Part shown: positions 28,935-51,610 of the stretch, piece by piece
Layout: the number at the start of each line of letters is the position of its first letter
Position numbering within the stretch: the first letter of the stretch is position 1
Assembly (NCBI GenBank): GCA_905479015.1
Contig: CAJQKV010000042.1
Location: 1-64,000 of the forward strand
Length of the DNA stretch: 64,000 bases
Reading direction: 5' to 3'
Source of the DNA: an uncultured Cyclobacteriaceae bacterium
GTDB lineage: Bacteria > Bacteroidota > Bacteroidia > Cytophagales > Cyclobacteriaceae
Notes under the pieces: generated by a model
The model's database searches: none
The model's input: only the letters and a program-made list of their open reading frames with translations
Told to the model about the DNA's origin: nothing
Made by a program: the position numbers and the translations under genes

Positions 28935-31900
28935 ATGTATTTAATCTTTGATACTGAAACTACCGGACTTCCTCTGCGTAGGAATGCGCCTATAGAAGAA
29001 GTGGATAACTGGCCTAGATTGGTTCAAATTGCATGGCAAGTGCATGATGCCTTTGGTAACTTAAAATCTCAAGGGAATAAGATCATCAAACCAGAGGGTT
29101 ACACCATTCCCTTCAATGCACAAAAAATTCATGGGATAAGTACTGAGCGGGCTTTACTTGAAGGAGATTCACTCAAATCGGTACTTGATACGTTTGCCGG
29201 AGAACTCAAAAACATACAAGTCCTGGTGGGTCACAATATTGACTTTGACAATAAAATTGTGGGTGCTGAGTTTTTTCGATGTAATTCCCAAAATTTACTT
29301 GCCGATTTCCCAAGTATAGATACCTGTTTTCAAACCAAGGAGTTCACGCAACTCAGAGGAGGCATAGGAGGTCGATTAAAAGCACCTAAATTAATTGAAC
29401 TTTATGAAAAACTTTTTGGAACGTCTTTTGGAGATGCTCATGATGCCGCTTATGATGTAGACGCTACTGCGAAATCCTTTTTTGAATGTCTCCGCAGGGG
29501 AATCCTTGAGCCGTTTGAACCCATCCCAAAAGAGGATATAAAATATCAGGCTCCAGAACTCGAAAAAGCAAATTTCTCCGTCATCGAGGAAAAAGAAATC
29601 GTTGTTAAAAAGCAAGATACTCAAGCGCTCAGTAAAGGTGAATTTACGCACCTTCACCTCCATTCTCAATTCTCTGTACTTCAAGCAACACCCGAACTCG
29701 ATGGGATCTTTGAAAAAGCAACTGCTCTCAAGATGGGTGCGGTTGCGATTACTGATTTAGGCAACTTATTCGGCGCTTTTAAATTTGTTCGCTTGGCCAA
29801 AAAGTACGGTATAAAACCTATTATAGGCTGTGAGTTTTATGTGGCCGAAGAACGAAAAAAGACAAAATTCACCAAAGACAGTCCTGACAAAAGGTTTCAA
29901 CAAGTGCTCTTAGCTAAAAATAAAAAGGGTTATCAAAATTTAGTCAAGCTGAGCTCTCTTGCTTACATCGAAGGTAATTATGGTCTTTATCCCCGAATAG
30001 ATAAAGACCTGATTATTGAATACAGCGAAGGCTTAATCGCCCTAAGTGGTGGTTTGAGAGGAGAGATTCCAAATTTAGTACTTAATGTGGGTGAGACCCA
30101 GGCAGAAGAAGCCCTGAAGTGGTGGAAGGATGCTTTTGGTGATGACTTTTATCTCGAATTGAATCGGCACGGTATTCCTGAAGAAGACCATCTGAATCAA
30201 ATATTAAATCGATTTTCATCATCCTATGGTATCAAAACCATCGCTGCTAATGAATTATTCTATTTGAATCAAGAAGATGCAAAGGCCCATGATGTGTTGA
30301 TCTGCATTAAAGAAAATGAAAAACAAAGTACACCCATAGGTAGAGGACGAGGATTTAGACACGGAATGGTCAACGATCAATATTTCTTTAAGAGTCAAGA
30401 AGAGATGAAAGTCCTATTTGATGATCTTCCTGAGGCCATAGAAAATATTAGTGCGCTGGTTTCCAAAATAGAACATTTTGAATTGGAGCGCGAGGTGCTT
30501 TTACCCGACTTTGATATCCCTGAATCTTTTTTAAATCTACAAGATCAATCGGACGGTGGAAAGCGTGGAGAAAATGCCTATTTAAGAGACCTCACCTACA
30601 AAGGTGCGGAAAAAAGATATGAGCAGATCGACGATGCATTAACAGAGCGTATTGATTTTGAGTTAGAAACCATACAAAATACAGGCTATCCTGGCTATTT
30701 TTTGATCGTCCAAGATTTCACCTCAAAAGCACGTGAAATGGATGTTGCAGTTGGACCTGGTCGCGGTTCTGCCGCAGGTAGTGTCGTCGCTTATTGTATT
30801 GGTATTACCAATGTAGATCCCATTGCTTATAATTTACTTTTCGAGCGTTTTTTAAACCCAGATAGGGTCTCCCTTCCCGATATCGATATTGATTTTGACA
30901 ATGAAGGTAGAGAGAAAGTAATCAATTACGTAGTCAATAAATATGGATTCAATCAAGTAGCCCAAATCATTACTTATGGTACAATGGCCCCAAAATCTGC
31001 TATCAGAGATGCGGGTCGTGTCATGGAATTGCCCCTATCAGAGACGGACAAAATTGCCAAATTAATTCCTGAAAGACCTGGAACTAATTTTATTCAAGCA
31101 CTGAAAGAAGTTCCTAGCCTCAAGACCATCCAAAAGGGAAATGATTTACCCTCACAGGTATTAAATCAAGCCGTGATTTTAGAGGGATCCCTAAGAAATA
31201 CGGGGATTCATGCATGTGGAGTGATCATCACGCCTAAAGACATGTCCAATTATATTCCCATGGCCCGGGCAAAAGATTCTGAATTGCTCATCACCCAATT
31301 CGATAACAGTGTCGTAGAATCAGCAGGTATGCTGAAAATGGATTTTCTAGGATTAAGGACGCTTTCTATCATTAAAACAGCGATAGAAAACATAGATAAG
31401 ATACATGGTATTCAGATTGATATTGATCTCATACCCTTAGATGATAAAGCTACCTATGAATTATATCAAAAGGGAGCAACCAACGGAACTTTTCAGTTTG
31501 AATCGCCGGGTATGCAAAAACATCTTCAGGCTTTAAAACCTGATAAATTTGAAGATCTAATTGCCATGAATGCGCTCTATCGCCCCGGGCCGATGGAATA
31601 CATCCCTAACTTCATCAGTCGTAAGCATGGTACAGAAAAAATCCATTATGATTTACCAGATATGGAAGAATATCTGGCAGAGACCTATGGTATCACTGTT
31701 TACCAAGAGCAAGTCATGCTGCTCTCTCAAAAAATAGCGGGCTTTACCAAAGGAGAAGCCGATGTTTTAAGGAAAGCAATGGGCAAGAAAATATTCAAAC
31801 TACTTGAAGAACTCAAACCCAAGTTCATTAATCAAGCCAAAGCGAAAGGTCATGACCAAGCTAGTCTAGAGAAAATATGGAAGGATTGGGAAGCTTTTGC

Positions 31901-33152
31901 TGCCTATGCTTTCAATAAATCTCATAGTACCTGCTACTCTGTGGTGGCCTATCAAACAGGGTATCTTAAGGCCAATTACCCCGCTGAATATATGGCGGCC
32001 GTGTTGACTCACAATCAAAACAATATTGATAAGGTCACTTTTTTCATGGAAGAATGCCGAAATCAAAATATCGTGGTTTTGGGTCCTGATGTCAATGAAT
32101 CTGATCAGCATTTCACAGTGAATTCAGCCGGTGAAATTAGATTTGGCCTCGGAGCCATTAAAGGTACCGGTGAAGCGGCAGTACAAGCTATCGTGGCTGA
32201 ACGAAAAGATGAACCTTTCGAGGATCTCTTTGATTTCGCAGTTAGGGTCAATTTGCGAGCAGTGAACAAAAAATCATTTGAAGCCTTGGCAAAAGCTGGT
32301 GGTTTTGATTGCTTCCCCGCCTATCACCGAAGGCAATATGTGGAGCCTGATATGGAAGGGAGTTCATTGATAGAAAGAGCCATTTCCTATGCAAATAAAG
32401 TTCAGCAGGAGGCTTTAAGTGCGCAAGGATCATTGTTTGGTGGCGGGGAAAGTAAGGGACTATCAAAACCAAAAGCAGGTGAAGTGGCTCCGTATGGAGA
32501 GATAGAAAAACTAAATATTGAAAAAGATTTGGTTGGCCTTTACATCTCTGGACACCCTTTAGACCAGTATAAATTTGAAATGCGTTTCCTTACTAAAGGA
32601 AAAATCAGTGATCTAAAAGATCTCACATTAGTCAACGGTCGTATATTCAAAATAGGAGGAATTATTAGTCAAGTGCAACATAGAATGACTAAAAAAGGTA
32701 GCCCGTTTGGTCAATTTACCTTTGAAGATTATAGTGACAGTCACACCTTTTTCCTATTTTCAGATACCTATTTAAAGTTTAAAAGTTATTTAGAAGTGGG
32801 TTGGTTTTTATCCTTAAGTGGATCCGTTCAAAACAGATGGAAAAGTGAAGAACTAGAATTTAAAATCTCCAATATGGAATACTTAGGAGATATTAGAGAA
32901 AAGGCCATCAAGGGACTCGAAATTCAAGTAAACCTTCAAGATATTAATGAGAACCTCATTGATGAACTCCAAAAATTGGGAGAGGAGTTCCCTGGAAATT
33001 GTGTGATCAAATTAAATATTTATAATAGGTATGAAGACCGCATGATCAATGTGGAAATGCTCAGTCGAAGCGTAACCATTGACCCTAACTATGCACTTAT
33101 AAAAAAAATAGAATCAATGGTTGACCTTCGCTATAAAGTACTGCTACACTAA
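28935..33152 (+). CDS. dnaE: DNA polymerase III alpha subunit with fused DEDDh exonuclease
   Basis: The replicative polymerase, 1405 residues. Residues 1-190 are a DnaQ-like 3'-5' exonuclease: Asp6-x-Glu8 in FDTETTG, His100/Asp103 in GHNIDFD, and His169-x4-Asp174 in AHDAAYDVD. A linker with many Lys and Glu follows, then a PHP domain from about 237 (HLHLHSQFS). The PHP metal-site stretch that usually reads TDHGN reads TDLGN at 273-277, so one His ligand is lost. The catalytic palm motif PDIDIDF is at 648-654, and fingers and HhH follow. The C-terminal OB fold is seen in FKIGGIISQVQHRM. The exonuclease is intact, so proofreading may be carried within this chain. Confidence 0.95.
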   Translation: MYLIFDTETTGLPLRRNAPIEEVDNWPRLVQIAWQVHDAFGNLKSQGNKIIKPEGYTIPFNAQKIHGISTERALLEGDSLKSVLDTFAGELKNIQVLVGHNIDFDNKIVGAEFFRCNSQNLLADFPSIDTCFQTKEFTQLRGGIGGRLKAPKLIELYEKLFGTSFGDAHDAAYDVDATAKSFFECLRRGILEPFEPIPKEDIKYQAPELEKANFSVIEEKEIVVKKQDTQALSKGEFTHLHLHSQFSVLQATPELDGIFEKATALKMGAVAITDLGNLFGAFKFVRLAKKYGIKPIIGCEFYVAEERKKTKFTKDSPDKRFQQVLLAKNKKGYQNLVKLSSLAYIEGNYGLYPRIDKDLIIEYSEGLIALSGGLRGEIPNLVLNVGETQAEEALKWWKDAFGDDFYLELNRHGIPEEDHLNQILNRFSSSYGIKTIAANELFYLNQEDAKAHDVLICIKENEKQSTPIGRGRGFRHGMVNDQYFFKSQEEMKVLFDDLPEAIENISALVSKIEHFELEREVLLPDFDIPESFLNLQDQSDGGKRGENAYLRDLTYKGAEKRYEQIDDALTERIDFELETIQNTGYPGYFLIVQDFTSKAREMDVAVGPGRGSAAGSVVAYCIGITNVDPIAYNLLFERFLNPDRVSLPDIDIDFDNEGREKVINYVVNKYGFNQVAQIITYGTMAPKSAIRDAGRVMELPLSETDKIAKLIPERPGTNFIQALKEVPSLKTIQKGNDLPSQVLNQAVILEGSLRNTGIHACGVIITPKDMSNYIPMARAKDSELLITQFDNSVVESAGMLKMDFLGLRTLSIIKTAIENIDKIHGIQIDIDLIPLDDKATYELYQKGATNGTFQFESPGMQKHLQALKPDKFEDLIAMNALYRPGPMEYIPNFISRKHGTEKIHYDLPDMEEYLAETYGITVYQEQVMLLSQKIAGFTKGEADVLRKAMGKKIFKLLEELKPKFINQAKAKGHDQASLEKIWKDWEAFAAYAFNKSHSTCYSVVAYQTGYLKANYPAEYMAAVLTHNQNNIDKVTFFMEECRNQNIVVLGPDVNESDQHFTVNSAGEIRFGLGAIKGTGEAAVQAIVAERKDEPFEDLFDFAVRVNLRAVNKKSFEALAKAGGFDCFPAYHRRQYVEPDMEGSSLIERAISYANKVQQEALSAQGSLFGGGESKGLSKPKAGEVAPYGEIEKLNIEKDLVGLYISGHPLDQYKFEMRFLTKGKISDLKDLTLVNGRIFKIGGIISQVQHRMTKKGSPFGQFTFEDYSDSHTFFLFSDTYLKFKSYLEVGWFLSLSGSVQNRWKSEELEFKISNMEYLGDIREKAIKGLEIQVNLQDINENLIDELQKLGEEFPGNCVIKLNIYNRYEDRMINVEMLSRSVTIDPNYALIKKIESMVDLRYKVLLH

Positions 33153-45762: not shown

Positions 45763-46809
45763 CTAAAAAATAAACGGCACAGGACATTTTACATCACGCG
45801 AACCTCGAGGAGGTTTTTTAACATCTCTTAAATCAAATGAATAACTCATAGAGAGCTCATGTGCCCCTCCACTGCTAAATCCTAAGTCTGACAATGTAAA
45901 ATCATAACTGTATCCTACCAGGGTAGGCCCTATTTTAACACCAAATAACAGCACGATATCACTTGGTCCGATTCCAGAAAAATCTTCGCTAGGAAAACCA
46001 CGATACCACAGACCCAACATGAGCGGCTCTAACATAAGACTCATACCCACATCGAGTTGAGTAAAGTCTTGCTGATCTTTGAAATTAAAAGAAGGGGTGA
46101 AACTTCTTTCTTTGCCCTCTTTTGAAGCCCATCTGGCGTTGATTTGACTGAAGTTTATTTTATAACCCCCATGCAATGAAAACTTGATCCTTAAAGGACT
46201 CTCATCTCCTGAGATAGATTGATTAGGCTCTGTGATATGATGAAAAGAGGTACCCAACCAAGCTTGTTTATTAAAAATAATACCTCCAAAAGCCAAATCC
46301 ATAAATTCAACGCTTAATCCTGTATTAAAAGATTCAATGGTTTGCGCAGAAATCAAACCCGTATCATCAAATTGATCTCCAAAAGTCAATCGATCAAAGT
46401 TTATATCTTTCCAGACGTAGCCCACTTCTACCCCTGGCCTGAAGGTCCAGTTATAATTTAATCGAACTTGATAAGCATATTGAACCGCCGCACTTCGAGC
46501 ATAGAGTCCTGCTAGACCTTCTCTATCTGAATTTAAAATCAAGCCCAAACTACTGCTGACATCATCAAAATTATAATAGGAGTAAAAGGAATAGCTTTCA
46601 AAGTTAGCATTGATCGAAGGCCATTGATTGCGATAATTTATCCCTGCACTACCCTGTTGATTGATCCCAACCAACGCCGGATTCAAAAACATAGGATTTG
46701 AATAATATTGTGAGAACTGCGTATCCTGAGCCATCAAAACATGCAGATGCAGTAAAAACAAGAAAAGAAATAAACCTCTTAGCCTCATTAAAGGATTAAA
46801 ATAGATCAA
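45763..46809 (-). CDS. PorP/SprF-family T9SS outer membrane protein
   Basis: A 348-residue protein with a signal peptide (MRLRGLFLFLFLLHLHVLMAQ region). Directly after it comes the family opening TQFSQYYSNPMFLNPALVG. The rest is alternating beta strands with GYSYDFTLSDL and HELSMSYSFDL, as expected for an outer membrane barrel. In Bacteroidota, members partner with a particular secreted protein: SprF with the SprB adhesin. It is divergent from the 1436-residue secreted protein with 101 bases between starts, which suggests that protein as the partner. A second, canonical PorP would be expected elsewhere. Confidence 0.9.
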   Translation of the reverse strand: MIYFNPLMRLRGLFLFLFLLHLHVLMAQDTQFSQYYSNPMFLNPALVGINQQGSAGINYRNQWPSINANFESYSFYSYYNFDDVSSSLGLILNSDREGLAGLYARSAAVQYAYQVRLNYNWTFRPGVEVGYVWKDINFDRLTFGDQFDDTGLISAQTIESFNTGLSVEFMDLAFGGIIFNKQAWLGTSFHHITEPNQSISGDESPLRIKFSLHGGYKINFSQINARWASKEGKERSFTPSFNFKDQQDFTQLDVGMSLMLEPLMLGLWYRGFPSEDFSGIGPSDIVLLFGVKIGPTLVGYSYDFTLSDLGFSSGGAHELSMSYSFDLRDVKKPPRGSRDVKCPVPFIF

Positions 46810-46910: not shown

Positions 46911-49900
46911 TTGAATCCACAGTTGAACCACTTAATTATTAAATCCTTCGCAAACCTCATCACCATTTATCGGAAAGGTTTCATTTATACCTTTCTTCTG
47001 GTGATTTCGGTGGCTTCAAATGCGCAATTATTAAATGAGACACAATGGTTTTTTGGCAGTTCTACTGCCAACTTGCAATTTGACAAAAATGGGCTTCTCG
47101 TATACGAAGAGGATCGTATGAATGCAAATTTTGGATTGGGGGGGCCGGCAGTAATTAATCATTCTCTAACGGGAAACTTAATGCTATACACCGATGGCGT
47201 CCGGATTTATGATGGCTCTGGAGAAATCATGTCGGGTGCTGTTGATCTAAACGGTGATGCATCCGTCAATCAAACCGCCTTGGCCTGCCCCTCACCTGAG
47301 GATTCGGATCGATATCTTATTTTTACCAATGCCAGTGAGCTTTCTGCTGAAGATGAATTGCAATACAGTCTCGTAGATCTAAGTGCTCCCGGCAATGGGA
47401 GCCTTAGTGCTCCCCTTGGAGAGGTCCTATCAAACAATAATTCAGTAGGTCTTTTCAGTCCTGCAGAGGGTATGACCATAGTGCAAAGCACCTCTGATGC
47501 GAGTATCAGTTGGTTGATTGCCCAAAATAGAGGTACTTATACTTTTTATGTGTTTAGAATCACCAATGACGGTGTTGATCCGGAGCCTGCAAGTATTCTT
47601 TATCCTTTTACTACTGACATTAGGGAATTTGAAGCTGCCAATATGTCAATGAATCCTGATTCTTCTATTCTTGCTGTAGCACCCAAAACAGCCTTAAGAA
47701 ACGTAATGCTGATGAACTTTAATGATACTTCTGGAGTGTTGAGCTTCAATAGTCAAATTTTAAATACGGGTTTTCCAGATGATGCAAATCAAGGTATTTA
47801 TGATGTTGAATGGTCAAATGATGGTCGCAAATTATATCTTTCACGTTATGGTGCGTTGGATGAAATCTCAGGCGATCTTTATCTGTTTGATTTGTCCGAT
47901 AGTTTAAGTCTGATTCAATCGATTCTACCCGAACCCATTTACCGAAGTTATGGTCTTAAAAGAGCCATTGATGGCCATCTCTACCACCTCGTGCAAGAAG
48001 AGGAAGCAGGTCCTTATTTGGTGAAACAAATTAAAAATATTGATCTTAGTTATGATTTAATTGTATACGAAAATGATTTTTTAACGACCGATTTTCAAAG
48101 CACCCAGTTCCCCGCATTTGCACCCGCTACTTTTGAGGAATTTACCTCTTTAGATTTTACCTATTTAGACAGTTGTCAAGATCTATCTACTAAGTTTTTC
48201 CCTTTGGTTGATCCTCCCGCCAATCAATATTTATGGGATTTCGGTGATGGAAGCGGAATTAACAGTATCGCTCCCATACATGCTTACGAATCTGCGAGCA
48301 GCTATAATGTCACCCTTTATGTAGAGCTTAACGGTAAAATACAAAGTATCACTAAGTCCATTAACATCATTGCAGAAGAAATGGAAGTCAATCTGATCGC
48401 TGATACTACCATCTGTGTTAATGAAATTCTTACCCTTGATCCAGAGGCGGAAGATGGTATTTCATATCAGTGGAATACGGGTGAAACCACCAGCACCATC
48501 GATATTGATACCGCAGGTATTTATTGGGTAGAAATAACCGGTGCCTCAGGTTGTACTAAATATGCAGAATCCTCAGTCACGGAATACGGTGCCCAACGTC
48601 AAATTCAAAATAAATGGTATTTCGGAGAGACCGCAGGCATTGAATTCACCGAAGGTCCCCTACCAATCGATGATGAAAATCAAATGAACTCCTTGGAGGG
48701 TTGTGCGACCATAGATGATGCGGATGGAAATTTGATGTTTTATACCAATGGGAGAACCATTTGGAATAGCGCGCACCAAGTCATGCCCTTCCTATCTGAC
48801 AGCATCCAAAGTCTCTCGGGAGATAGTACAAGTAGCCAAGGTGCTTTGATTATTCCTTTTATGGATGATATTACCATGTTCTATGTATTCACAGCTGGAG
48901 AAGTCGATGCGGATGGAACCCATTTTCCCATGACTTATGCTATTGTGGATATGAAAAAAGATTCGGCCCGCGGTGCCGTTGTACTCAGTAATTTATCACT
49001 GTTTGACCAAAGTATTGAAAAAATCACTTCTTCGGGTTTTTCATTAAATGCATGGTTGATCACGCATGAATTCGGTAATAATTCTTTTCGAGCCAATCTC
49101 ATCGATGATGCAGGCATCGGGGCTACCGTATACACTCCAATCGGCAGCGTCTTAAAAGCGCAAACGCCTGAACAAGCCTCTGGGTATATGGCTTTTGGCA
49201 GTGGGACTCAATTGTTTGCTAATACCATTCCAGGTCCCAATACCCTTGAAATATTTGATTTTGATAACCAAACAGGGAATTTTGAAAATTTCAGACAAAT
49301 CGAAACTGAAGCAACAGAAGACCTCTATGGAGTGGCTTTTTCTAGTGATGGTTCTAAGATTTATACCACCTCAGTAAGTGAATTGATTCAGTTTAATCTT
49401 GATAGTTTAGATACGGAAGATGAAATAACTTACATCACATCAAGTAAATATGATGATTATAGTTCGGAAGGTGTCTACGGTGCGCTACAGCGTGGACCTA
49501 ACGGCATCATTTATTTGGCCATTGATCAAGGGCTCGCGGTGGGTACCATTTCTAATCCTTCACTGGAAGGTGCGGCAGCCAATTTCAATGCTACAGGTTT
49601 TGATTTGTTGGGGCATACCAGCAGAAAGGGTCTACCTAGTTTTGTCCAAAATTCAGGATCATCCCTTCAGAACCCCGCTGCTTCCTATGTCAATGCCTGT
49701 TTTGGGCTTGCTACTCAGTTTTATGCATCGGGTAGTTCTATTTTAGATGAATATTTTTGGGTTTTTTATGATTCATTATCTCAAACTGATACTTTGTATG
49801 CTACGAACGAGCAAACTACAGAATATGAATATGGTGCTGCTGGTTTTCAATATTTCACTTTGAATATTACCAATCGATGTGGCTATGACAGCCTGATCAC

Positions 49901-51221
49901 AGATACCTTGGAGGTTTATAGTCTTCCGGTGAACCCAGACATTATCGAAAGTGCCTCCATATGTGAAGAGTTTTTGGAACTTGCCGCATGGAATGAGGAT
50001 CGCAGTGATTATAATTATTATTGGTCAACCGGAGATACTTCCAGAATCATTGAAATTTTCGATCCCACTACCCTCTACTTAGCCATTATAACTGATGATG
50101 GTTGTTCCTCGGATACGCTAGAAATATTTGTAGGGGATGGGCGTCCAGACCTTGACTTAGGTATCGATCAACAGTATTGTCAATTTGATTCGGCATCCGA
50201 TTTAAACAGCTATATAAGTGACTTAAATACCCAACAATGGACCATTGATGGCGCAGTCCTTGATACGACCAGTACGCAGTCTATATCTACAGAAATCTCA
50301 GGTGTTTTTGAATATATCATTTATGCCAAAGAGGACGATGCTTTTGGTGGTTGTAGTAATACAGATACCGTTTTAATATCTGTAAAAGCAGCCCCAGAGC
50401 TCAATCCAACCTATACACCACCCTCTAATTGCGGTGCAGATGATGCACTACTCTCTTTTTACATTTCATCTGAAGGAAGTTACAGATACGATTTTAGTGG
50501 TATAGATATCAGCACTTTTGGATCTATTGATGGGCCCGATACCTTATCAGTCTCTGGTGGACTGTCTGCTGGAGTTTATAATTATAAAATCACAGACTTA
50601 GTCTCTAGCTGTATTTTGGAAAATCCAGTTATTATTGAAGATGACGCTCCCTTCTCATTATCAGCAAATAATCTGCCTGATTGTGATATCGATGCGAACT
50701 TGAGTTTGACGGTTTCGGGAGTAGCCCTTCCTTCAGCGGTAAATATATATATCAGTGACCTTAACTATGATACGGTATATGCCGAAAATAATCTTTATGT
50801 TCCGCTCAGTATTACACCAGAACTGGACTCAGGATTTTATTATGTAACCGTCGAAGAAATTGGTGATAGCGGACCCTGTGTTCAGTCCGATACCGTTCTA
50901 ATTACCCCACTGATTGCAGGAATAAATGACTGTCAACCTGAAATATTTGCACCAAATGCATTCAGTCCGAATGGTAACAGCCAGAATGAAAACTTTTTTG
51001 TATACCCCAATTTATTTATCGATCAATTTGAAATATTTATCTATACCCGATGGGGAGAGCAAATCTATTACTCAAATGATAAAAATTTCAGTTGGGACGG
51101 TACCTATAATGACCAAATCATGGGTCCAGCAACCTATGCCTATGTGATTAAATACACCCATATAGAAAAACCAGATTTAGGAGTTCAAACCCAATATGGA
51201 TCCATCTCTTTGATTAAATGA
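46911..51221 (+). CDS. Large secreted protein with tandem propeller-like modules, PKD domain and gliding-type C-terminus
   Basis: A 1436-residue exported protein. The start is TTG at 46911, the only start before the signal peptide (GFIYTFLLVISVASNAQ). Residues from about 46 (QWFFGSST) and again from about 569 (KWYFGETAG) begin similar modules, each with a W-[FY]-FG opening and GNLM-[LF]-YT-[DN]-G shortly after, so the N-terminal half is duplicated. A PKD domain with WDFGDG lies at about 440. The C-terminus (NAFSPNGNSQNENF, YTRWGEQIYYS, FSWDGTYND) is the type B T9SS sorting domain of gliding-associated proteins. It is probably surface-bound or released, and an adhesin role is inferred. Confidence 0.88.
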   Translation: MNPQLNHLIIKSFANLITIYRKGFIYTFLLVISVASNAQLLNETQWFFGSSTANLQFDKNGLLVYEEDRMNANFGLGGPAVINHSLTGNLMLYTDGVRIYDGSGEIMSGAVDLNGDASVNQTALACPSPEDSDRYLIFTNASELSAEDELQYSLVDLSAPGNGSLSAPLGEVLSNNNSVGLFSPAEGMTIVQSTSDASISWLIAQNRGTYTFYVFRITNDGVDPEPASILYPFTTDIREFEAANMSMNPDSSILAVAPKTALRNVMLMNFNDTSGVLSFNSQILNTGFPDDANQGIYDVEWSNDGRKLYLSRYGALDEISGDLYLFDLSDSLSLIQSILPEPIYRSYGLKRAIDGHLYHLVQEEEAGPYLVKQIKNIDLSYDLIVYENDFLTTDFQSTQFPAFAPATFEEFTSLDFTYLDSCQDLSTKFFPLVDPPANQYLWDFGDGSGINSIAPIHAYESASSYNVTLYVELNGKIQSITKSINIIAEEMEVNLIADTTICVNEILTLDPEAEDGISYQWNTGETTSTIDIDTAGIYWVEITGASGCTKYAESSVTEYGAQRQIQNKWYFGETAGIEFTEGPLPIDDENQMNSLEGCATIDDADGNLMFYTNGRTIWNSAHQVMPFLSDSIQSLSGDSTSSQGALIIPFMDDITMFYVFTAGEVDADGTHFPMTYAIVDMKKDSARGAVVLSNLSLFDQSIEKITSSGFSLNAWLITHEFGNNSFRANLIDDAGIGATVYTPIGSVLKAQTPEQASGYMAFGSGTQLFANTIPGPNTLEIFDFDNQTGNFENFRQIETEATEDLYGVAFSSDGSKIYTTSVSELIQFNLDSLDTEDEITYITSSKYDDYSSEGVYGALQRGPNGIIYLAIDQGLAVGTISNPSLEGAAANFNATGFDLLGHTSRKGLPSFVQNSGSSLQNPAASYVNACFGLATQFYASGSSILDEYFWVFYDSLSQTDTLYATNEQTTEYEYGAAGFQYFTLNITNRCGYDSLITDTLEVYSLPVNPDIIESASICEEFLELAAWNEDRSDYNYYWSTGDTSRIIEIFDPTTLYLAIITDDGCSSDTLEIFVGDGRPDLDLGIDQQYCQFDSASDLNSYISDLNTQQWTIDGAVLDTTSTQSISTEISGVFEYIIYAKEDDAFGGCSNTDTVLISVKAAPELNPTYTPPSNCGADDALLSFYISSEGSYRYDFSGIDISTFGSIDGPDTLSVSGGLSAGVYNYKITDLVSSCILENPVIIEDDAPFSLSANNLPDCDIDANLSLTVSGVALPSAVNIYISDLNYDTVYAENNLYVPLSITPELDSGFYYVTVEEIGDSGPCVQSDTVLITPLIAGINDCQPEIFAPNAFSPNGNSQNENFFVYPNLFIDQFEIFIYTRWGEQIYYSNDKNFSWDGTYNDQIMGPATYAYVIKYTHIEKPDLGVQTQYGSISLIK

Positions 51222-51253: not shown

Positions 51254-51610
51254 ATGAACCTATCGAAAATAAGCTACTTTCTGATGATCAGCTTTTTGAT
51301 CAGCCATACCTCTTGGACCAAAACACAGCTGCCTACTGCATTAAAAATACAAGTGATGGATGCCTCCGAACATCCTGTTGCTGGTGCTGAAGTGGTTCTT
51401 TACACCACAGAAGAAAACTATCGATTTCAAAAAAATGCATTTGCAAAAGGGGAAACTGACAAAAAGGGCAGGGTTACTTTTCGAAGATTACAACCTATCC
51501 CTTATTTCATAGATGCCCGGAATGAGTTGAAAAAAAATGACGGGCTCGCAGCTGTGACCGATTCACTTCACAAAAATAAAATAAACAAAGTCGTAGTATT
51601 GATTGAGTAA
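51254..51610 (+). CDS. Small exported Ig-like/carboxypeptidase-regulatory-domain protein
   Basis: A 118-residue protein with a signal peptide (SKISYFLMISFLISHTSWTKT). The mature part is a single beta-sandwich of the carboxypeptidase-regulatory-like type: LKIQVMDASEHPVAGAEVVLY, then TDKKGRVTFRRLQP. Such domains occur in adhesins and outer-membrane proteins. It lies 32 bases after the large secreted protein and on the same strand, so it may be co-transcribed and act with it. The precise function is unknown. Confidence 0.75.
   Translation: MNLSKISYFLMISFLISHTSWTKTQLPTALKIQVMDASEHPVAGAEVVLYTTEENYRFQKNAFAKGETDKKGRVTFRRLQPIPYFIDARNELKKNDGLAAVTDSLHKNKINKVVVLIE

Follow-up and report, generated by a model that had tools for sequence, protein, structure and literature searches.

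A predicted type IX secretion substrate with two propeller-like modules and its divergently encoded PorP/SprF-family carrier in the Cyclobacteriaceae

How surface proteins are held and moved in gliding-type bacteria outside Flavobacterium is poorly known. The window analyzed here (the whole 64,000-nucleotide stretch from an uncultured marine Cyclobacteriaceae bacterium with a genome of 2.93 Mb, assigned to this family by its closeness to marine MAGs named Flammeovirgaceae/Cyclobacteriaceae) raises this question in a specific form, as it pairs a long gene for a putative surface protein with a divergent PorP/SprF-family gene. We asked what the long protein is built from, how its internal repeat arose, and how its neighbor might hold—or even move—it at the cell surface.

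Anatomy of the two-propeller protein

The open reading frame lies at the coordinates and on the strand that an earlier note on this DNA had given (Table 1), and its TTG start is common to 7 of 7 close relatives compared. At the protein N-terminus, a hydrophobic stretch ending in SNAQ (seen by eye in the sequence) is consistent with a signal peptide, and Q39, the likely mature end, is retained in 91% of 36 orthologous A modules. The opposite end carries the gliding-type sorting C-terminus proposed earlier, a type B domain at residues 1347–1433 (Pfam covers 1347–1419 and NCBIfam reaches 1433) that scores 46 bits for TIGR04131 (cut-off 35) and 47.9 bits for PF13585 (cut-off 27). By this C-terminal domain the protein is classed as a type B substrate of the type IX secretion system (T9SS), and T9SS-dependent secretion is predicted. 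The description of the protein as “giant” fits its 1436 aa only in part, since this length is modest beside most orthologues (mostly about 1730–1870 aa), and the stalk region is shorter here than in most of them.

Table 1. Features of the two-propeller locus, with positions in the window unless a locus is named.
Feature	Position	Strand	Basis
PorP/SprF-family outer-membrane carrier, divergent from the two-propeller gene	45763..46809	-	PF11751 3.6e-60, TIGR03519 1.9e-70
Codon of the invariant C-tail cysteine of the carrier, Cys342 of 348 (...KCPVPFIF)	45784..45786	-	42/42 orthologous carriers
Two-propeller T9SS type B surface protein (predicted)	46911..51221	+	ORF, 1436 aa, TTG start
Putative signal peptide, mature end likely Gln39 (...SNA/QLLNE)	46911..47024	+	Read from sequence
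Module A, likely beta-propeller, residues 44–410	47040..48140	+	Module comparison, tree, profile
PKD1 and Ig-like segment between the propellers, residues 417–549	48159..48557	+	PKD_4 8.6e-11 at 437–484
Module B, likely beta-propeller, residues 567–925	48609..49685	+	Comparison, tree, profile/Foldseek PDB matches
PKD2-like and Ig-like segment, residues 925–1067	49683..50111	+	Similarity to residues 411–566
C-terminal stalk region without Pfam match	50112..50930	+	Pfam search
Type B T9SS C-terminal sorting domain (CHU_C / TIGR04131)	50949..51209	+	PF13585 1.5e-12, TIGR04131 4.4e-12
Small secreted prealbumin/CarboxypepD_reg-like protein (predicted)	51254..51610	+	ORF and Pfam
Gene of ~195 aa downstream of the two-propeller gene in relatives	L083:11168-11758, L084:10853-11443, L085:5926-6519, L087:10751-11338, L091:11034-11627		

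Between these ends lie two long modules, which open with WFFG at residue 46 and WYFG at residue 569, where the earlier note had placed them. Direct comparison shows extended similarity between the two. A BLASTP alignment of module A with module B covers residues 43–363 and 566–873 (26% identity, 339 columns, E=9e-20), their Smith–Waterman score is 203 as against 40.8 ± 6.4 in 500 shuffles (maximum 80), and a profile–profile comparison built from 36 sequences per module aligned 357 columns (probability 100, E=9e-46). The PKD–Ig segments that follow each module are also alike (residues 925–1067 compared with residues 411–566; score 104 vs. 33 ± 6 in shuffled sequences, with 0 of 500 shuffles reaching it), and because this similarity continues beyond the modules, we delimit a repeated unit of ~505 aa (residues ~44–549 and ~567–1067). 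The PKD domain expected between the modules was found at residues 437–484. Whole-protein self-BLAST returned the trivial match alone, with no module repeat listed, so the repeat signal needs direct module-to-module comparison.

The modules match no Pfam family of their own. When a profile of 18 modules was compared with PDB, its matches were mostly beta-propellers. An AlphaFold model of both modules together (922 residues) was too poor for use (pLDDT 47.9), and module B was therefore modeled singly, with both module types used as alignment rows (pTM 0.71, mean pLDDT 63.5). With this model, the PDB matches of Foldseek were overwhelmingly 7-bladed and WD40 propellers, though at a TM of about 0.4. 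From the profile and Foldseek matches we take modules A and B as likely beta-propellers.

The surroundings of the gene hold two small neighbors across relatives. The prealbumin/CarboxypepD_reg-like gene of the window is often found downstream of the two-propeller gene in relatives, and several genera carry a conserved gene of ~195 aa directly downstream, which is absent in the window (Table 1). A second large open reading frame in the window (28935–33152, 1405 aa) was considered as a possible relative and set aside, as it reads, by eye and from sequence only, as a DNA polymerase III alpha subunit that has an exonuclease part at its N-terminus.

Origin and distribution of the twin modules

The similarity of the two modules invites the reading that one was copied from the other, which is what the earlier note had proposed as an internal duplication. 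In an unrooted tree of 90 modules, the first modules form one clade (98/84) and the second modules another (100/99). The second modules are sister to single modules that other families carry at comparable loci (99/99), whereas the first modules fall outside this group and outside nearly all solo modules, adjoining an A-like module from another family (L145). When A and B are forced into one clade, the likelihood falls by 49.9 log units and the AU test gives p=0.0007, a result, like the tree itself, that is affected by long branches (L099, L109). A recent tandem duplication, which would make A and B closest relatives, is rejected by the tree and the AU test. The homology that the earlier note had seen stands, while its claim that a module was copied inside this gene is not supported.

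On this phylogeny the repeat is ancient or acquired by fusion, and no recent tandem copy. Because tree and AU test separate A from B, module A would have been gained by fusion or would be an ancient duplicate that was lost elsewhere. The broader proposal that both modules came from tandem duplication within the gene—which bears on origin and says nothing of function—gains something from the fact that the modules and the PKD–Ig segments behind them are repeated in the same order, and an ancient duplication with later loss of A elsewhere is still compatible with the data; given the separate clades, the ties of B to the single modules of other families and the AU result, however, we consider it improbable.

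Whatever its origin, the two-propeller protein is near-universal in the Cyclobacteriaceae. A match (E<=1e-10) occurs in 94 of 98 genomes, and in 76 of the 98 the open frame reaches 1,390 aa or more (a count of listed rows), the remaining matches being mostly fragments at contig ends. Two modules were present in each of the 34 Cyclobacteriaceae loci parsed (L042, L043, L072, L074, L077, L079, L082–L100, and L102–L110), and one locus from another Cytophagales family (L101) has two as well. Other Cytophagales families carry a one-propeller version of 949–1500 aa, in the order PKD–Ig, propeller, PKD, sorting domain, and here too a PorP gene usually adjoins. Module A finds matches in 147 of 295 sampled Bacteroidia genomes, and a widespread, unnamed propeller module of this class thereby gains a clear anatomical context. 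The same module also occurs with an OmpA-type C-terminus in proteins of ~500 aa (L126, L133, L134, L135, and L143), a tail that Pfam confirmed for L126 and L133.

The divergent carrier and its tail cysteine

The divergent neighbor was correctly named in the earlier note as a member of the PorP/SprF family (TIGR03519, 237.6 bits, cut-off 90.55; PF11751, 204.3 bits, cut-off 22.3), and the partnership suggested there gains further support from gene order. A divergent pair of this carrier with a two-propeller or one-propeller gene is retained in 38 of 41 loci (i.e., the window and 37 of the 40 others), which span the Cyclobacteriaceae and those other Cytophagales families that have the one-propeller version; the exceptions to the arrangement are L101, L111, and L117. 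In one genome (G041) the two genes stand ~10 kb apart, both kept and still divergent, so that loss of the carrier is ruled out there; the intervening ~10 kb (L081:11900-18741) consists of mostly small open reading frames. For L043, the stretch examined did not include the carrier. As type B C-terminal domains outnumber PorP genes in this genome (7 vs. 4), this carrier or others may serve more than one substrate. A motif search near the pair, a weak test, detected no OmpA-tailed (PorE-like) gene.

The C-tail of the carrier holds a cysteine in a CP motif (CPxF/CPVPFIF) in 42 of 42 orthologous carriers, 34 of them from Cyclobacteriaceae, and this is the sole cysteine common to all 42. Most PorP paralogues lack it: of 20 from related genomes whose tails could be read, 5 have a tail cysteine, a rough fraction drawn from the best match of most genomes (a truncated frame, L171, was set aside). 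Within this genome, the PorP beside gldK contains no cysteine at all, and a third PorP ends in CPVYF. The twin Cys-X-Cys of the SprF type is absent from the C-tail of the carrier, and because it has a single cysteine we do not class it as SprF type and propose only that it works alike. Adjacency and cysteine, both conserved, can be co-inherited and are not proof of interaction.

A candidate partner for this cysteine is encoded in the same genome, which contains GldK, GldJ, and GldL (GldJ is found in 59 of 60 Cyclobacteriaceae genomes). Cys249 of GldK aligns with a PorK cysteine and lies 56 residues from Cys193, nearly the same distance as the 58 residues that separate Cys285 from Cys343 in Flavobacterium johnsoniae GldK; it is from the PorK alignment and this spacing, rather than from direct alignment with F. 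johnsoniae GldK, that we assign it as the track cysteine. By that assignment, the genome keeps both the invariant GldK track cysteine and GldJ.

Candidate functions and known systems

Taken as a whole, the explanation we favor, with modest confidence, is that of a dedicated carrier and a moving, propeller-headed adhesin. The carrier would take the two-propeller protein from the translocon and stay bound to it as its outer-membrane anchor, its single C-tail cysteine would be disulfide-linked to the conserved GldK track cysteine, in the manner of F. johnsoniae SprF, and the propeller heads would then travel along the cell, serving as a gliding or surface-scanning adhesin. That the carrier secretes and anchors the protein is predicted by analogy with characterized relatives, as PorP-like proteins anchor type B proteins (PMC9143113) and type B secretion requires cognate carriers (PMC12618676). 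We infer the disulfide, the movement along the cell and a role in binding from the sequence alone, and with them the label “adhesin,” ligand binding by the propellers being putative. The invariance of the carrier cysteine suggests, as a possibility, that the gliding machinery tows the protein along the cell. For mobile type B carriers, Gorasia et al. postulate the lack of a PorE-like neighbor. In F. johnsoniae, SprF bonds via its C-tail Cys-X-Cys to GldK Cys343 by a disulfide and moves the adhesin SprB, and both tail cysteines are required for gliding (PMC12635249); the single-cysteine precedent is PorG of Porphyromonas gingivalis, which is a different protein. The bolder statement that the Cytophagales have in this pair their main track-borne surface adhesin, with a carrier–GldK bond via one cysteine as a one-cysteine variant of the SprF mechanism, is tentative, and we think it rather unlikely to hold in full.

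The same pair could, on the contrary, display a static surface protein, secreted and anchored by the carrier and uncoupled from the track, with propellers that bind a polymer or another cell and a tail cysteine that has another role. We take this possibility seriously while leaning against it: some type B substrates of F. johnsoniae show static foci only (PMC12618676), and against the two tail cysteines of SprF the carrier has a single one, yet that cysteine is invariant across the 42 carriers and lies within the very tail that SprF uses, and the PorE-like neighbor postulated for non-mobile anchoring was not detected by motif. Near-universal presence in the family would also fit a housekeeping role, i.e., a part in the secretion machinery, as an accessory or cap protein and not an adhesin, for which PG1035 of P. 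gingivalis, a type B protein that binds PorP (PMC9143113), would be the model. That role seems to us very unlikely, as gldK and gldL have a separate, cysteine-free paralogue as their PorP neighbor, and as the protein bears two large propeller heads and differs in length between genera. To read the propellers as surface-presented enzymes of the lactonase or lyase type is less probable still; some homologues have weak profile similarity to Lactonase and SGL propellers and lactonases do appear among the Foldseek matches, but those matches are mostly WD40-type scaffold propellers at about 10% identity, and no catalytic motif was identified on cursory inspection.

For the preferred explanation, an adhesin anchored by its carrier and moved along the GldK track, the invariant cysteine of the carrier tail is the new and testable clue. 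A literature search for Cyclobacteriaceae together with gliding adhesins found nothing. With this cysteine, the near-universal pair makes it possible to test directly whether track-coupling by disulfide, as described for SprF in 2025, also operates in another order, and with a single cysteine in place of two.

The pair belongs to a known kind of system, type B substrate plus carrier, of which it is a conserved case with an uncommon twin-propeller architecture. It resembles SprB/SprF of F. johnsoniae (PMC12635249, PMC9143113) in combining a type B surface protein with a neighboring PorP/SprF carrier that has a tail cysteine, in a genome that encodes GldJ and a GldK with the invariant cysteine. 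However, SprB is a highly repetitive protein of 669 kDa for which no twin-propeller design is described, SprF has Cys-X-Cys where the carrier here has one cysteine in CPVPFIF, and sprF lies directly downstream of sprB, whereas the genes here are divergent. PorP/PG1035 of P. gingivalis (PMC9143113) likewise involves a type B protein anchored via a PorP-family barrel; there, PorP binds PorE as well and has no paralogue in the species, whereas here the gldK-linked PorP is a separate paralogue and no PorE-like neighbor was detected. In F. johnsoniae, type B substrates are likewise encoded in pairs with cognate PorP/SprF-like carriers on which their secretion depends, e.g., Fjoh_3952/Fjoh_3951 (PMC12618676), a likeness drawn from the description of the gene pair. 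The single-module proteins of Bacteroidia share a homologous propeller (mostly 29–37% identity to module B) and include OmpA-tailed proteins of ~500 aa (L126 and L133), standalone proteins of ~370–400 aa, and one-propeller type B proteins; unlike the two-propeller protein, they have one module, and many have other tails or lack a type B C-terminal domain.
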